Assembly (NCBI GenBank): GCA_016784165.1
Contig: JADHVD010000008.1
Location: 1 to 51,920, forward strand
Origin: Candidatus Woesearchaeota archaeon
GTDB taxonomy: Archaea > Nanobdellota > Nanobdellia > Woesearchaeales > BS150m-G63
DNA: 51,920 bases
Direction: 5' to 3'
In this document: positions 7,492-37,403 of the stretch, in pieces
Layout: each line of letters begins with the position of its first letter
Numbering within the stretch: position 1 is the first letter of the stretch
Program-made: the position numbers and the translations under genes
The notes under the pieces: generated by a model
What the model was told of the DNA's origin: nothing
Seen by the model: only the letters and a program-made list of their open reading frames with translations
Database searches by the model: none

Positions 7492-7595
7492 ATAAATAAA
7501 TAAAAATAAAGCAATTTAATTTAGAATAATTTTAGTTCTACTAGGTGATTTTATCTAGATTAATTTAATTGAAAAGAGAAATAATAAGTAAAAAA

Positions 7596-7669
7596 TGACC
7601 CTAGAGGGATTCGAACCCTCATCAGCCGGTCCGAAGCCGGATGCACTATCCAGGTTATGCTATAGGGCC
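7596..7669 (-). tRNA. tRNA-Arg (anticodon TCG)
   Basis: Reverse complement folds as GGCCCTA acceptor/TAGGGTC, loop CTTCGGA (U33, TCG), T-arm GAGGG-TTCGAAT-CCCTC. Confidence 0.9.
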
Positions 7670-7694
7670 ATAATTAACCATAAAAGAATCTTTA

Positions 7695-7739
7695 ATATAA
7701 AAAACTAATGTAAAAAAAGTAAAATAAAGAAAAAATCAG
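7695..7739. repeat. 45-bp direct repeat, copy 1 (upstream of tRNA-Arg)
   Basis: atataaaaaactaatgtaaaaaaagtaaaataaagaaaaaatcag, identical to 9179-9223. Confidence 0.97.
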
Positions 7740-7817
7740 GTTAGATAGAATAATTTTAGAAAGTGAAAAGAACATTAGAATGAGTGGTTAAGAAGTTCCA
7801 CAAAAAGAGATATAATC

Positions 7818-8044
7818 TCAAAAACAATTAACAGATTTTGCATAATAATAATTATTTGCAAATTCAAAATCAAGATCCTTAAATATTTTAATTAGGGTAT
7901 CTAAAGATTTTGTTATTGCAAGTTTATTACAAATCTTTGCAGAATTAGAAATGCCTTTTGTAAAATTTTGTGCATGAACTTTTATTTGATTGAAGTTAAA
8001 GTATTCTTTCTTAACTCATTGGCTATCTCTACCATTGAGTCTCT
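7818..8044 (-). pseudogene. frameshifted remnant of an unidentified protein gene
   Basis: Two joined frames: RDSMVEIANELRK / EYFNFNQIKVHAQNFTKGISNSAKICNKLAITKSLDTLIKIFKDLDFEFANNYYYAKSVNCF*; no intact ORF. Confidence 0.45.
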
Positions 8045-8045
8045 G

Positions 8046-9155
8046 TTAAAGGTCATATACCACCCCTTTATCTCTTAGTAAAGTATATGTATATCTGTTG
8101 TTTTTAGATTTTAATTTTCCTTTAATCAATTTGATAAATTCTTCATAATCTTTAACATCCGCAAAGACTTGACATCCAGTAGAATGTATGTCTACTTTTT
8201 TTGTTATACCTATTGCTTCACCCCTATGAATATTAATATAAAAAATTCCTTTTTCAATTTTGTCCTTATTAAGGGTTAATTTACCATCTCCATCATCATC
8301 TCTGTAAACTTCAACATCTTTTGTTTGAACCAATGCTTCATGGCATCTTTTTAATGAAGTTATATCTTTATTTAATAATTTTCCCTCATTGGTAATTGGT
8401 TTTAAGAAATCATATAATTTTGATTTAATTATATTCTTTCTTCCACCATGATGCAATCCTAACCTGTAAGCGTCAATATATTGGTTCTCCTTAAGTATTG
8501 CAATACCTTTTTTATTAACTTCCAAGTATTTATCACCTTCAAGCCATACTGCACCAGGATCAGTTGTAAATCTATATTGTTTAACGTTCAAATTGTTGTT
8601 TTCATCATACCAGAATAAAATTAAAGTATCGTTAAAATCATCTATAGGGGAGGGTGTTCTGACACCCACTATATTTGCTTTAAAAGGTTCTGTAAATATT
8701 TTATAACCTTTATTTTTCATCACTTTTATGACTTTATCTAGATCATAAACCTTCTCTGGTTTTATTCTTTGATTCTCATTTATAACTGTTTCTTCACTAA
8801 TCTTAGAGTGCATCTCTTCTAATTGCTCAATCAAAGGTTCTACTTCTTTGGCTCTGTTGTTTATTGCTTCAATATCTAGTTTTTCTACTTTCAGAATGTT
8901 TCTTATATCTTCTGCGTATTTAGAATCGCGTGTCTTATAAAAATTTAATAGGTCCTCATAAACTCTTTTTAACTCATCTATCTTTTCAAATAAAGGTTCA
9001 TCTTTAGAAATTTTCTTCTCTCTTCTCTTCAATAACTTGATAAAAGCTTTTAATCTCTTCAACCTTTTTGAATCATGCCACATCAAATTTCCTTCAGAAG
9101 AATCTAAAGCAAGGTTGCCATCAACAAGCTTGTCAAAATGCTTAAAAATTCCCAT
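8046..9155 (-). CDS. L,D-transpeptidase (YkuD)-like / phage-lysin-like protein with N-terminal coiled region
   Basis: INIHRG...VDIHSTGCQVFADVKDYEEF matches the H-x(n)-S-x-G-C catalytic pattern; GLHHGG and EALVQ..VEVYRDDDGDGKL motifs recalled from phage-associated proteins; ATG at 9155 preferred over the track's TTG at 9158. Confidence 0.6.
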   Translation of the reverse strand: MGIFKHFDKLVDGNLALDSSEGNLMWHDSKRLKRLKAFIKLLKRREKKISKDEPLFEKIDELKRVYEDLLNFYKTRDSKYAEDIRNILKVEKLDIEAINNRAKEVEPLIEQLEEMHSKISEETVINENQRIKPEKVYDLDKVIKVMKNKGYKIFTEPFKANIVGVRTPSPIDDFNDTLILFWYDENNNLNVKQYRFTTDPGAVWLEGDKYLEVNKKGIAILKENQYIDAYRLGLHHGGRKNIIKSKLYDFLKPITNEGKLLNKDITSLKRCHEALVQTKDVEVYRDDDGDGKLTLNKDKIEKGIFYINIHRGEAIGITKKVDIHSTGCQVFADVKDYEEFIKLIKGKLKSKNNRYTYTLLRDKGVVYDL

Positions 9156-9178
9156 CAAAACAAAGAATAGAATAACAT

Positions 9179-9223
9179 ATATAAAAAACTAATGTAAAAA
9201 AAGTAAAATAAAGAAAAAATCAG
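9179..9223. repeat. 45-bp direct repeat, copy 2 (upstream of the 8046-9155 CDS)
   Basis: Identical to 7695-7739; offset exactly 1484 bp. Confidence 0.97.
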
Positions 9224-9333
9224 TCTTCAAAAGGGTTTTTACCAGGTCCTACCCAAAGATATTTAGTTTCTTTCTTTTTGAATAATTCTTTGAGTTCGCC
9301 CCAGACTACCCTCGCTAATTTTATTAATTTCAT
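9220..9333 (-). CDS. 37-aa hypothetical protein; stop codon overlaps the 45-bp repeat
   Basis: MKLIKLARVVWGELKELFKKKETKYLWVGPGKNPFED; not in supplied ORF track. Confidence 0.5.
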   Translation of the reverse strand: MKLIKLARVVWGELKELFKKKETKYLWVGPGKNPFED

Positions 9334-9350: not shown

Positions 9351-9641
9351 TTACTCTTTTTTCAAAGTAATTTCTATCGTTGAAACTCTTACGTCTTTGC
9401 CTTCGTTGTTTTTGAACTCTTCTGAATCTATTTCAATTCCAATAACTTTTACCTGATCTTTTAAAAATCTTTTAGTCGTAACTTCGGAGATATCTACTGC
9501 TCGAGAAATAAACTTACCTCTTGCCTTCACTATAACTTCTTTGGCATCCTTGGTTGTAAACTGCATAACTATTCCAGTAACATAGTTCATAAAAGGTTTT
9601 CCACCAACAAAAATTGAGTTATCATTCGACATATTAGCCAC
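9351..9641 (-). CDS. albA: DNA/RNA-binding protein Alba
   Basis: IFVGGKPFMNYVTGIVMQFTTKDAKEVIVKARGKFISRAVDISEV. Confidence 0.93.
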   Translation of the reverse strand: MANMSNDNSIFVGGKPFMNYVTGIVMQFTTKDAKEVIVKARGKFISRAVDISEVTTKRFLKDQVKVIGIEIDSEEFKNNEGKDVRVSTIEITLKKE

Positions 9642-9674: not shown

Positions 9675-9869
9675 TTATAAATCATCATCATTTTTCATTC
9701 TTCTAGTAACATACCCTGCAATCACATTTCTCATCTTTGTAGAGGGAATTTTTGCAAATTTTCCTATAATTTCTTTGTTTTCATCAAAGTCTTTTTTAAG
9801 TTCTTTACTGTGTTCTCTAATCAAATCATTAGTTATCCTTTTTACTAATTGTGTTTTTATTCTTCCCAT
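9675..9869 (-). CDS. rps17e: ribosomal protein S17e
   Basis: MGRIKTQLVKRITNDLI...F..NK..I.....IPSTKMRNVIAGYVTR. Confidence 0.92.
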   Translation of the reverse strand: MGRIKTQLVKRITNDLIREHSKELKKDFDENKEIIGKFAKIPSTKMRNVIAGYVTRRMKNDDDL

Positions 9870-17447: not shown

Positions 17448-18614
17448 ATGAAAAAAAAAGTTATTTTAAGTGTATTTTTAATTATGGTTGTTCTTTGTAG
17501 TGTATCTTTAACCATCGCATTTAGTTTTAGAGATTTATTTACTAGAGAAACAGAACCTATTGATTCAAACGAAAGGGGAAATACTGGAAGAGGGAATACT
17601 GGGCAAGAAGATTATGGTGTGGATGAGGAAGAGGAAGAAGTCGAAGATGAAGTCGAAGAGGAAGTTGAGGAAGAGTTAATTGTATCTTTGTATAGTTATT
17701 CTTGTAATGCTGGCGGAAAGGTAAATTATGCTTTTGAAATGAATCAAATTGTAAATGATGGAGATGATTATAAAATCTGTGTTGGTGGAGATTGTGAATA
17801 TGTTTGTTCTAAATCTTCAAACAATTATAAACTTATGTGTATGAGTTTAGAACCTTTGGGAAGTTTAGCAGAAGTTGAATTATACTATAATAACCAAAAG
17901 ATTTTTTCTGAAACAAAACAAATACCTGGGTGTGATGTAGAAGTAGATTTGTATACTTATTCCTGTAATATTGGCGGAAAGGTAAATTATGCTTTTGAAA
18001 TGGATCAAATTGTAAGTTCTGGGGAAGGTTATGAAATTTGCATAGGGGGACTGTGTGAAGATTCTTGTTTGAAAGGTTCAAATGATTATAAGATTTTTTG
18101 TACTAGTTCAAAATTATTAGGAAATTCAAAAGAAGTCAAATTAGTTTATAATAATCAAGAAATTTTTTCTGAAACAAAACAAATACCTGAATGTGAAGTT
18201 CAAATGGATACCATGGCAAGTTTAATTTATTTAAGCGATATAGAAAACATTAATTTTCAATTAAATGGTGTTAATTCTAACAAAAGATATTCTATAAGGG
18301 TAAATTTGGATGTTTTTGATGAAGATTATATGAGTCAAAGCACCCCGTTTTTGAATGGAATTGCTATTGGAACATATAATGTAAAAGGATTTGTTGCAAC
18401 ATGGGATAATTTTGAAGAAGTAAAATATTTTTATGATTTGATAAGAAAATCTTTAATAGATTCCAATAATGATGGCGGTTTGCCATTAAATAGTCAAAGT
18501 CATTTATATGTTAGTGGAGAAGATTGTGCATTTTTAGATGGTGGGACTTATTGTACATTGGATTTATCTGAAGATAGTTATGATCATATCCATTTGATTG
18601 AACAAATTAAATAA
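17448..18614 (+). CDS. secreted protein with two ~87-aa tandem repeats
   Basis: Signal-like N-terminus, acidic linker, SYSCNxGGKVNYAFEMxQIV...FSETKQIPxC repeated. Confidence 0.65.
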   Translation: MKKKVILSVFLIMVVLCSVSLTIAFSFRDLFTRETEPIDSNERGNTGRGNTGQEDYGVDEEEEEVEDEVEEEVEEELIVSLYSYSCNAGGKVNYAFEMNQIVNDGDDYKICVGGDCEYVCSKSSNNYKLMCMSLEPLGSLAEVELYYNNQKIFSETKQIPGCDVEVDLYTYSCNIGGKVNYAFEMDQIVSSGEGYEICIGGLCEDSCLKGSNDYKIFCTSSKLLGNSKEVKLVYNNQEIFSETKQIPECEVQMDTMASLIYLSDIENINFQLNGVNSNKRYSIRVNLDVFDEDYMSQSTPFLNGIAIGTYNVKGFVATWDNFEEVKYFYDLIRKSLIDSNNDGGLPLNSQSHLYVSGEDCAFLDGGTYCTLDLSEDSYDHIHLIEQIK

Positions 18615-26158: not shown

Positions 26159-27505
26159 ATGTTTAAATTTTTAAAAGAAAAATTAAGTAAGGCAGTATCT
26201 GTATTTTCTAAAGGGGTCGAAGAATCTTCAGAAGAAGAAGTAGAAGAAACATCTAAAGAAACATCTAAAGAAACATCTAAAGAAACATCTAAAAAAGAAA
26301 CTAAGAAAAAAGAAGATAAAAAACCTGTCGAAAAAAAGAAAGAAAAGGAAATTAAAGAGAAAAAAACAGAAAAACCAAAAAAGAAAGATAAAAAATCAAT
26401 AAAAGAAGAAAAACAAAAAAAACAAAGCAAAGAAGAAAAAGAAGAAGAAAAAGAAGAATCGAAAGAAGAAGCGAAAGAAGAAAAACCAGAAGAGGAAAAA
26501 CAAGGCTTTTTCAAAAAAATATTTAAGAAAAAAGAACAAGAGCCAGAAGAACTCAAAGAAGAAAAGGAAAAAGAAGAACAAGAAGAAGAACCTAAAGAAA
26601 AGCCAGAATCCCGACCAAAAGAAGAACCAAAAGAAGAAAAACCAAGTTTCTTCAAAAAAATACTTAAGATTTCTATCTCAGACGATAAATTTAATGATTT
26701 ATTTTGGGAAATTGAATTAGCACTTTTAGAAAATAACGTAGCAGTAGAGGTTATTGAAAAGTTCAAGCAAGATTTAAAAGAGGAATTACTGAATAAAAAA
26801 TTAAGCCCATTCAAATTAACACAAGTAGTCAAAAAAAGTTTTGGAAACACATTAGAAGAACTATTTGATATAGAAGAAATAGATTTAATTTCAAATATAA
26901 AAAAACAAAAACCTTACACAATTCTTTTTGTAGGGGTTAATGGAAGTGGAAAAACAACCAACCTTGCAAAAGTAGCATATCTCCTCAAAAATAAAGGATT
27001 TAAACCAGTGATTGCAGCATGTGATACTTTTAGGGCAGCAGCATTACATCAATTAGAAGAACACTGTAATAATTTAGATATCAAATTAATTAAACATGAT
27101 TATGGCTCAGATGCAGCTGCAGTTGCTTTTGATGCAATAAAACATGCAGAATCAAAAAATCTCGATGTTGTTCTTATAGATACAGCCGGACGTTCACATT
27201 CAAATGTGAATCTTATGGATGAGCTAAAAAAAATAGAAAGAGTGTCAAAACCACATCTGACTGTTTTTGTAGGCGATTCTTTAACTGGAAATGATGTTGT
27301 AGAGCAGGCAAGAGCATTTAATGAGTCAGTAGGGATAGATGCAATCATATTATCAAAAGTAGATGTAGATGAAAAAGGCGGAGCTGCAATTTCAGTAAGC
27401 CATATAACTGGAAAACCAATCATTTACATTGGTTCAGGGCAAGAATATAAGGACTTAAAAGAGTTTGATAAAGAATTAGTTATAAATTCTCTCGGTTTAG
27501 ATTAA
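26159..27505 (+). CDS. ftsY: SRP receptor FtsY with long charged N-terminal region
   Basis: VGVNGSGKTTNLAKVAYLL, DTFRAAALHQLE, DTAGRSHSN. Confidence 0.95.
   Translation: MFKFLKEKLSKAVSVFSKGVEESSEEEVEETSKETSKETSKETSKKETKKKEDKKPVEKKKEKEIKEKKTEKPKKKDKKSIKEEKQKKQSKEEKEEEKEESKEEAKEEKPEEEKQGFFKKIFKKKEQEPEELKEEKEKEEQEEEPKEKPESRPKEEPKEEKPSFFKKILKISISDDKFNDLFWEIELALLENNVAVEVIEKFKQDLKEELLNKKLSPFKLTQVVKKSFGNTLEELFDIEEIDLISNIKKQKPYTILFVGVNGSGKTTNLAKVAYLLKNKGFKPVIAACDTFRAAALHQLEEHCNNLDIKLIKHDYGSDAAAVAFDAIKHAESKNLDVVLIDTAGRSHSNVNLMDELKKIERVSKPHLTVFVGDSLTGNDVVEQARAFNESVGIDAIILSKVDVDEKGGAAISVSHITGKPIIYIGSGQEYKDLKEFDKELVINSLGLD
26246..26293 (+). repeat. 12-bp tandem repeat gaaacatctaaa x4
   Basis: Four consecutive exact copies encoding (ETSK)4 in FtsY N-terminus. 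Confidence 0.95.
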
Positions 27506-36473: not shown

Positions 36474-37403
36474 ATGTCAGATAAAGAAATTAATATAACT
36501 TATGAAACTCTTTTTGAATTCTCTCAAAGAGAAAAGAATAGAGAAGAACTTCAAAGTTTAGGGGATAATTTTTATGAAGATGTTTCACACTATATTCAAG
36601 AAAAAATCAAAATTCTACAAAAAGATCAAGGCACTTTAGATACTTTTTCAGAAGAGGAAAAAGAAAAAACAAGAACCCAATTGGGCAATATCAAAAGAAT
36701 TCTTACTCAACTCTATGAAAAGAGAGAGAAAAAGATAATCAACATGGCTACCCATAAATCCAGAGAGCCAGCTACATTGGTAGATGAATCTGTTATGCTA
36801 AATCATGAAAGTGAAATGTATAATCATTTTACTGATTTATTGAATAAATACAGGAAAGAAAAGTTAATGAGTCTTTTAAGCACAAAACCCGCACAACCAA
36901 CACAACCAACACAAGAATCAACAGAACAAACACAAGAACCAACACAACCAACACAAGAATCAACAGAACAAACACAAGAACAAACACAAGAATCAACAGA
37001 ACAAACACAACAAACACAAGAACAAACACAAGAATCAACAGAACAAACACAACAAACACAAGAACAAACACAAGAATCAACACCAGTCAAAGAAGAAGAA
37101 AAACCATTACAAGAAACAGAATCTCCAGAAACACACTTACAACAAGAATCAACACAAGAATCAATAAAACAAACAGAACAAACACAAGAACAAACAGAAA
37201 TTGCAAAATCTAAACAAGAAACATCAGACACTCAAGAAACACAAGAAAAAGAAACAAAAAGAATCAAATTTACACATTATGTTCCTAAATTCCTTGGAAG
37301 AGAGATGGAAGTGTATGGACCATTTGAACCAGAAGATATAGCAACACTCCCAATAGAATTAGCTAAGATCCTAATAACTAAAGGAAGGGCAGAAGAGATA
37401 TAA
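36474..37403 (+). CDS. GINS-like (Gins51/15-type) DNA replication protein with Thr/Gln/Glu repeat linker
   Basis: N-terminal helical domain (YETLFEFSQREKNREELQSLGDNFYEDVSHYI) and C-terminal VPKFLGREMEVYGPFEPEDIATLPIELAKILITKGRAEEI resembling the GINS B domain; upstream of L44e. Confidence 0.7.
   Translation: MSDKEINITYETLFEFSQREKNREELQSLGDNFYEDVSHYIQEKIKILQKDQGTLDTFSEEEKEKTRTQLGNIKRILTQLYEKREKKIINMATHKSREPATLVDESVMLNHESEMYNHFTDLLNKYRKEKLMSLLSTKPAQPTQPTQESTEQTQEPTQPTQESTEQTQEQTQESTEQTQQTQEQTQESTEQTQQTQEQTQESTPVKEEEKPLQETESPETHLQQESTQESIKQTEQTQEQTEIAKSKQETSDTQETQEKETKRIKFTHYVPKFLGREMEVYGPFEPEDIATLPIELAKILITKGRAEEI
36893..37085 (+). repeat. degenerate tandem repeat with an exact 42-bp unit (ESTEQTQQTQEQTQ)
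   Basis: agaatcaacagaacaaacacaacaaacacaagaacaaacaca repeated with 42-bp spacing at 36989 and 37031. Confidence 0.85.

Follow-up and report, generated by a model that had tools for sequence, protein, structure and literature searches.

How did a 1.44-kb fragment carrying a phage-type gene come to lie immediately upstream of a tRNA-Arg gene in a Woesearchaeota genome, framed by two identical copies of a short regulatory element? The window analysed here is a stretch of 51,920 nucleotides from Candidatus Woesearchaeota archaeon (assembly GCA_016784165.1, contig JADHVD010000008.1). The explanation that we favour, at a probability of roughly 0.6, is a one-off capture of a foreign fragment, with duplication of a 45-bp terminator/TATA target and each neighbour keeping a copy.

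The duplicated element

Positions 7695-7739 and 9179-9223 form an exact 45-bp direct repeat, with a start-to-start spacing of 1484 bp and 1439 bp of DNA between the copies. The identity claimed in a preliminary description of this DNA is confirmed, and 45 bp is far above chance: 60 windows of equal size, simulated with an order-3 Markov model, held no exact direct repeat longer than 21 bp. The 45-mer occurs twice in the genome (26 contigs, 865,243 bp) with up to 3 mismatches allowed. No third copy was found in these 865 kb at that tolerance, so the additional copies next to other cargo that the preliminary description had proposed to look for did not emerge. A search of IMG/VR with the 31-nt core of the 45-mer gave no match, and folding of the 45-mer gave 0 kcal/mol, with neither a single-strand fold nor an attC-like one. 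The features of the locus are as follows.

9675-9869: S17e, named from reading the sequence
9351-9641, minus strand: Alba (PF01918), the start of a conserved neighbourhood with S17e
9220-9333, minus strand: a 37-aa ORF (orf37) downstream of Alba, with its TGA stop inside copy A
9179-9223, minus strand: 45-bp repeat, copy A, in front of the cargo gene, with the orf37 stop codon, a poly-T terminator-like tract and a TATA box
9156-9178, minus strand: spacer of 23 nt from copy A to the cargo ATG, read from the sequence
8046-9155, minus strand: cargo CDS of 369 aa, with an N-terminal helical part and a C-terminal lysin-like domain
7821-8015, minus strand: 5'-truncated end of a tRNA-dihydrouridine synthase (dus) gene, its last ~50 codons and stop
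7740-7820, minus strand: non-coding right end of the insert, with a 14-bp match between 7746-7759 and 7522-7535, the latter downstream of the tRNA
7695-7739, minus strand: 45-bp repeat, copy B, in front of tRNA-Arg and the source of its TATA box
7595-7670, minus strand: tRNA-Arg (TCG), 24 nt from the edge of copy B

Read on the minus strand, the 45-mer leads from the stop codon of the 37-aa ORF, by way of T-rich tracts, to TTTTTTATAT. Such an appearance is expected of an archaeal terminator with a TATA box behind it, and the preliminary description had correctly delimited the element as reaching from a stop codon and poly-T tract to a TATA-like sequence: the TGA of the 37-aa ORF is inside the repeat and the TATA box is at its other edge. 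In copy B the TATA box precedes the 5' end of tRNA-Arg by 33 nt, and in copy A it precedes the cargo ATG by 31 nt; several other tRNA genes of the genome have a TATA box at the equivalent position. From this spacing, both copies are presumably active promoters, and a TATA box at -31 suggests that the cargo mRNA may be leaderless or nearly so. The repeat copies had been described as lying 26 nt from tRNA-Arg and 24 nt from the CDS. The adjacency stands in both cases, while the distances become 24 nt for the tRNA and 23 nt for the cargo, whose ATG is at 9155. The tRNA is the sole TCG tRNA among those in the genome to which ARAGORN gave an anticodon, and an Rfam search of the region returned nothing but tRNA above its gathering score.

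Other repeats were seen in this genome. Within the window, 36895-37196 and 26244-26293 are tandem repeats with periods of 42 bp and 12 bp, probably coding repeats, and 17711-18189 holds two pairs of 28-31-bp exact repeats, both spaced by 261 bp, probably a repeated protein domain. Outside the window there are 11 copies of a structured non-coding element of ~100-150 bp, most of them directly at the 3' ends of tRNA genes (Phe, Ile, Ser-gga, Ser-cga, Gly-tcc, Cys and others; loci L041, L042, L061, L094-L103 and L184-L189 on contigs C9, C10, C12, C14, C18 and C24 of this genome, G000). The element terminates in CC/GG-AAAACGTAGGTTCCAAAT and, in most copies, a copy of the adjoining tRNA's 3' end. 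It is tandem at tRNA-Phe and tRNA-Ile, and its stems show compensatory changes as judged by eye. It is absent from Rfam, and a covariance model found none in 60 relatives.

The DNA between the copies

The cargo gene and the dus end are the only genes of the insert. No transposase and no integrase or recombinase gene was found between the copies, in agreement with the preliminary description. The ends of the insert share no terminal inverted repeat beyond GTTA (P 0.89), no tRNA remnant was found inside it, and its base composition is similar to that of its surroundings.

The N-terminal ~135 aa of the cargo are predicted to be helical, and no relatives of this part were found. Residues ~136-366 form a lysin-like domain of phage and bacterial type that belongs with PHROG 3000, a phage protein family of unknown function (profile match E = 9.3e-24, best over residues 271-361). 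In tblastn searches crAss-like phages match residues 144-366, and the domain also matches proteins of other phages and of bacteria, some of them annotated as peptidoglycan-binding. The cargo retains every column in which 37 viral relatives are invariant, including H235, H310 and S325-x-G-C328. An IMG/VR search with the single cargo protein gave no match, and one with an alignment as query gave hundreds. A structure model of the domain (mean pLDDT 84.6) matches viral predicted structures, one of which is named 'Lysin' of a marine phage (E = 7e-15). Against the PDB, the fold has no match below E = 0.25 and no transpeptidase among the 50 matches listed, and a sequence search returned nothing meaningful.

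H310 and S325-x-G-C328 presumably resemble the catalytic His and Ser-x-Gly-Cys of YkuD, and the gene had been labelled L,D-transpeptidase-like. Pfam recognises no family in the cargo or in any of the 38 aligned members, and the label is thus a guess at the level of a motif. NCBIfam has none for the cargo domain either. Assignment of the cargo to the YkuD L,D-transpeptidases therefore draws no support from Pfam, NCBIfam or PDB folds, and the CDS is not recognisable as one of them.

Relatives of the cargo are rare among archaea of this order. BLAST found none in 60 related genomes, and a profile search was positive in two of 359 genomes of the order, this one and G213. The G213 protein (43% identity) is a stand-alone protein of 237 aa encoded between archaeal genes; the other relatives are mostly phage proteins.

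The ~300 nt between the CDS and the tRNA-side copy are not empty, since they hold the 5'-truncated dus end. This end is about 35-49% identical to the full-length Dus of relatives, and the complete enzyme is absent from the insert. Its best match is in G231 (30.3 bits), against 17.9 bits for the genome's own intact Dus, which is encoded on another contig. Many relatives' Dus match it better than the genome's own does, which makes a foreign source probable, so that by this comparison the dus end is probably foreign too. The dus tail had no match in phages, and a search for a second version of the insert tail elsewhere in the genome gave only short AT-rich matches.

The locus in related genomes

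The gene content of the genome reads as that of a DPANN-type archaeal lineage. Of the 29 relatives at order level that have an Alba locus, most carry S17e and Alba together, and tRNA-Arg(TCG) follows close behind Alba in about ten. G007 belongs to a different family within the same order, so that the empty site is known at that distance only. Here Alba, a homologue of orf37, a T-rich tract with TTTAAATA and tRNA-Arg follow one another in ~60 nt, with no insert. The orf37 homologue ends in YIWVGDGENPF followed by a stop. The window's orf37 belongs to no Pfam family, and its C-terminal motif, Y(L/I)WVGxGxNPF, recurs in related short ORFs behind Alba in G007, G013, G044 and G014. Loci with a short conserved ORF of this kind and a Y(L/I)WVGxG-like motif are L005, L009, L010 and L020.

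These sequences support an ancestral layout, at order distance, of S17e, Alba, a small ORF, a terminator/TATA element and tRNA-Arg. The core of this layout (37-aa ORF, terminator/promoter, tRNA-Arg) had been proposed from the window alone, together with a comparison of empty sites across relatives. G007 has the predicted uninterrupted arrangement, and about ten other relatives show the adjacency of Alba and tRNA-Arg. Because relatives show the layout without the insert, the insert is derived and one of the 45-bp copies is a duplicate; the earlier proposal that a module entered this site is borne out in the same way.

A member of the same family, G001, indicates to which gene the promoter first belonged. 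There, TTTTTTATATTA precedes tRNA-Arg, and the TATA region is the same as in copy B. The TTTTTTATATTA common to G001 and the window extends 2 nt beyond the repeat, on the tRNA side only. This argues that the promoter was ancestrally that of the tRNA and that the cargo has a borrowed copy. The occurrence of TTTTTTATATTA before tRNA-Arg in G001, together with the TATA position, agrees with the earlier view that the cargo possesses a separate copy of the tRNA promoter element. A direct empty site was not found in G001, whose contigs are interrupted within Alba and shortly upstream of tRNA-Arg. Upstream of tRNA-Arg in that genome (L192 1-165, G001:C188) is an incomplete ORF, possibly glycosyltransferase-like (Pfam E = 0.03 only), which continues into the promoter of the tRNA. 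A scan of genome contigs with GluRS for a congener returned two distant archaea only, neither with a useful locus.

The interval between Alba and tRNA-Arg varies between relatives (L005, L007, L010, L015, L016, L029). Named from reading the sequences, its genes include a ribbon-helix-helix and RelE-like pair in G014 and LAGLIDADG-like ORFs in G008 and G044; other, differing genes occur in G021, G023 and G057. This diversity suggests that the site tolerates insertions, and the interval looks like an insertion hot spot. No exact direct repeats of at least 20 bp at a spacing of at least 150 bp were found at these relatives' loci.

Origin of the insert

Any explanation starts from what is established: the duplication itself, the insert-free layout of relatives, which two genes are represented in the insert and where the TATA boxes lie. 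In the capture that we favour, an acquired fragment comprising the lysin-like gene and the broken 3' end of dus would have entered between the Alba-orf37 operon and tRNA-Arg, in a single non-homologous event that also doubled the target site, perhaps through a staggered break or a template switch. The 45-bp terminator/TATA element between orf37 and tRNA-Arg would have been duplicated in the process. Copy A would retain the stop codon of orf37 and the terminator and act as the cargo promoter, and copy B would retain the TATA box of tRNA-Arg. One edge of the repeat coincides with the orf37 stop codon and terminator, the other with the tRNA-Arg TATA box. Since the duplicated element would leave both neighbours working, the insertion may have been tolerated for this reason, and selection may explain why such an event is observed. 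The insert has no recombinase, inverted ends or repeat fold, the repeat lies outside the tRNA and the dus gene is broken; together this points to random capture of a foreign fragment with target duplication, rather than to a cassette or an integrative element.

Integration of a circle that bore one 45-mer together with the cargo and the dus end is unlikely. A single crossover at the chromosomal 45-mer, homologous or assisted by a recombinase, leaves exactly one intact copy at each end and would allow re-excision. The genome also has two tyrosine recombinase genes on other contigs and other elements at tRNA ends, and the 9-bp TTATTCTAT is present at both ends of the insert (the longest common word, P 0.046). 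However, the circle would already have had to bear the host's own terminator/promoter, and the 45-mer is nowhere else in the genome and its core is absent from IMG/VR. Moreover, the insert has no integrase and no part of the tRNA gene is included in the repeat. More doubtful still is a tandem duplication that came first, in which a unit of ~220 bp (45-mer, tRNA-Arg and 3' flank) was doubled and the first tRNA was later replaced by foreign DNA. Weak support comes from TAGAATAATTTTAG, which lies beside copy B (7746-7759) and in the 3' flank of the tRNA (7522-7535), at a nominal P of about 0.001-0.005 for a match picked after the fact. The match is only 14 bp long, however, the score of the whole alignment is not significant (P 0.39-0.62), six extra bases separate the match from copy B, and the insert holds no tRNA remnant.

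It is tempting to speculate on an excisable promoter-capturing circle of 1.48 kb that integrates by short homology at a host terminator/promoter and thereby always falls under a strong host (tRNA) promoter. To our knowledge, such gene uptake has not been described for these archaea, and we consider it very improbable. The promoter-hijacking cassette of the preliminary description, taken as a recurring mobile unit, is unsupported: it is a single case, with no further 45-mers and no att/attC or inverted-repeat anatomy, and the broken piece of an unrelated gene in the insert fits a randomly captured fragment. Least probable of all is an assembly artefact, in which the graph used the shared 45-mer to join a separate molecule or a strain variant. 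The draft genome has 26 contigs, but for a loop through the 45-mer there must be reads that truly connect it to the insert on both sides, the composition of the insert resembles its surroundings, and the dus sequence within it is of archaeal type. In addition, 45 is not a usual assembler word length.

Comparison with known systems

Like archaeal integrated elements at tRNA hot spots, the locus has acquired DNA near a tRNA gene, flanking direct repeats and a site that varies between relatives. Known tRNA-targeting integrases recombine within the tRNA gene, usually at its 3' end. Here, in contrast, 24 nt separate the repeat from the tRNA 5' end, on the upstream side, none of the repeat is tRNA sequence, and integrase genes are found on other contigs, not in the insert. 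Insertion sequences and transposons differ in their terminal inverted repeats, which the insert does not have. Cross-domain gene capture has also been considered for archaeal integrons (PMC9668308). Unlike integron cassettes, the insert has no attC fold, array or adjacent integrase, and there are two 45-mers only.

The C-terminal 230 aa of the cargo are like the PHROG 3000 and crAss-like phage lysin-like proteins in all invariant residues of the 37 viral relatives. The phage proteins examined are stand-alone domains or have other N-termini, whereas the cargo is encoded on an archaeal chromosome and has an added helical N-terminus of ~135 aa. In carrying a bacterial or phage-type, possibly wall-active domain in an archaeon, the cargo resembles, as judged from sequence, the archaeal peptidoglycan hydrolases acquired from bacteria (PMC12352652). 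The main text of that paper mentions neither transpeptidase nor YkuD.

Implications for the organism

Support for a promoter-hijacking cassette does not extend past this one locus; the insertion is a neat but in essence ordinary uptake of foreign DNA beside a tRNA gene. It illustrates clearly how a compact archaeal genome can take up a foreign gene without harm to a tRNA gene, ready-made promoter included. The phage-type, lysin-like cargo is found in an archaeal lineage that is not expected to make peptidoglycan, and is a small addition to the question of whether such archaea act on bacterial walls.
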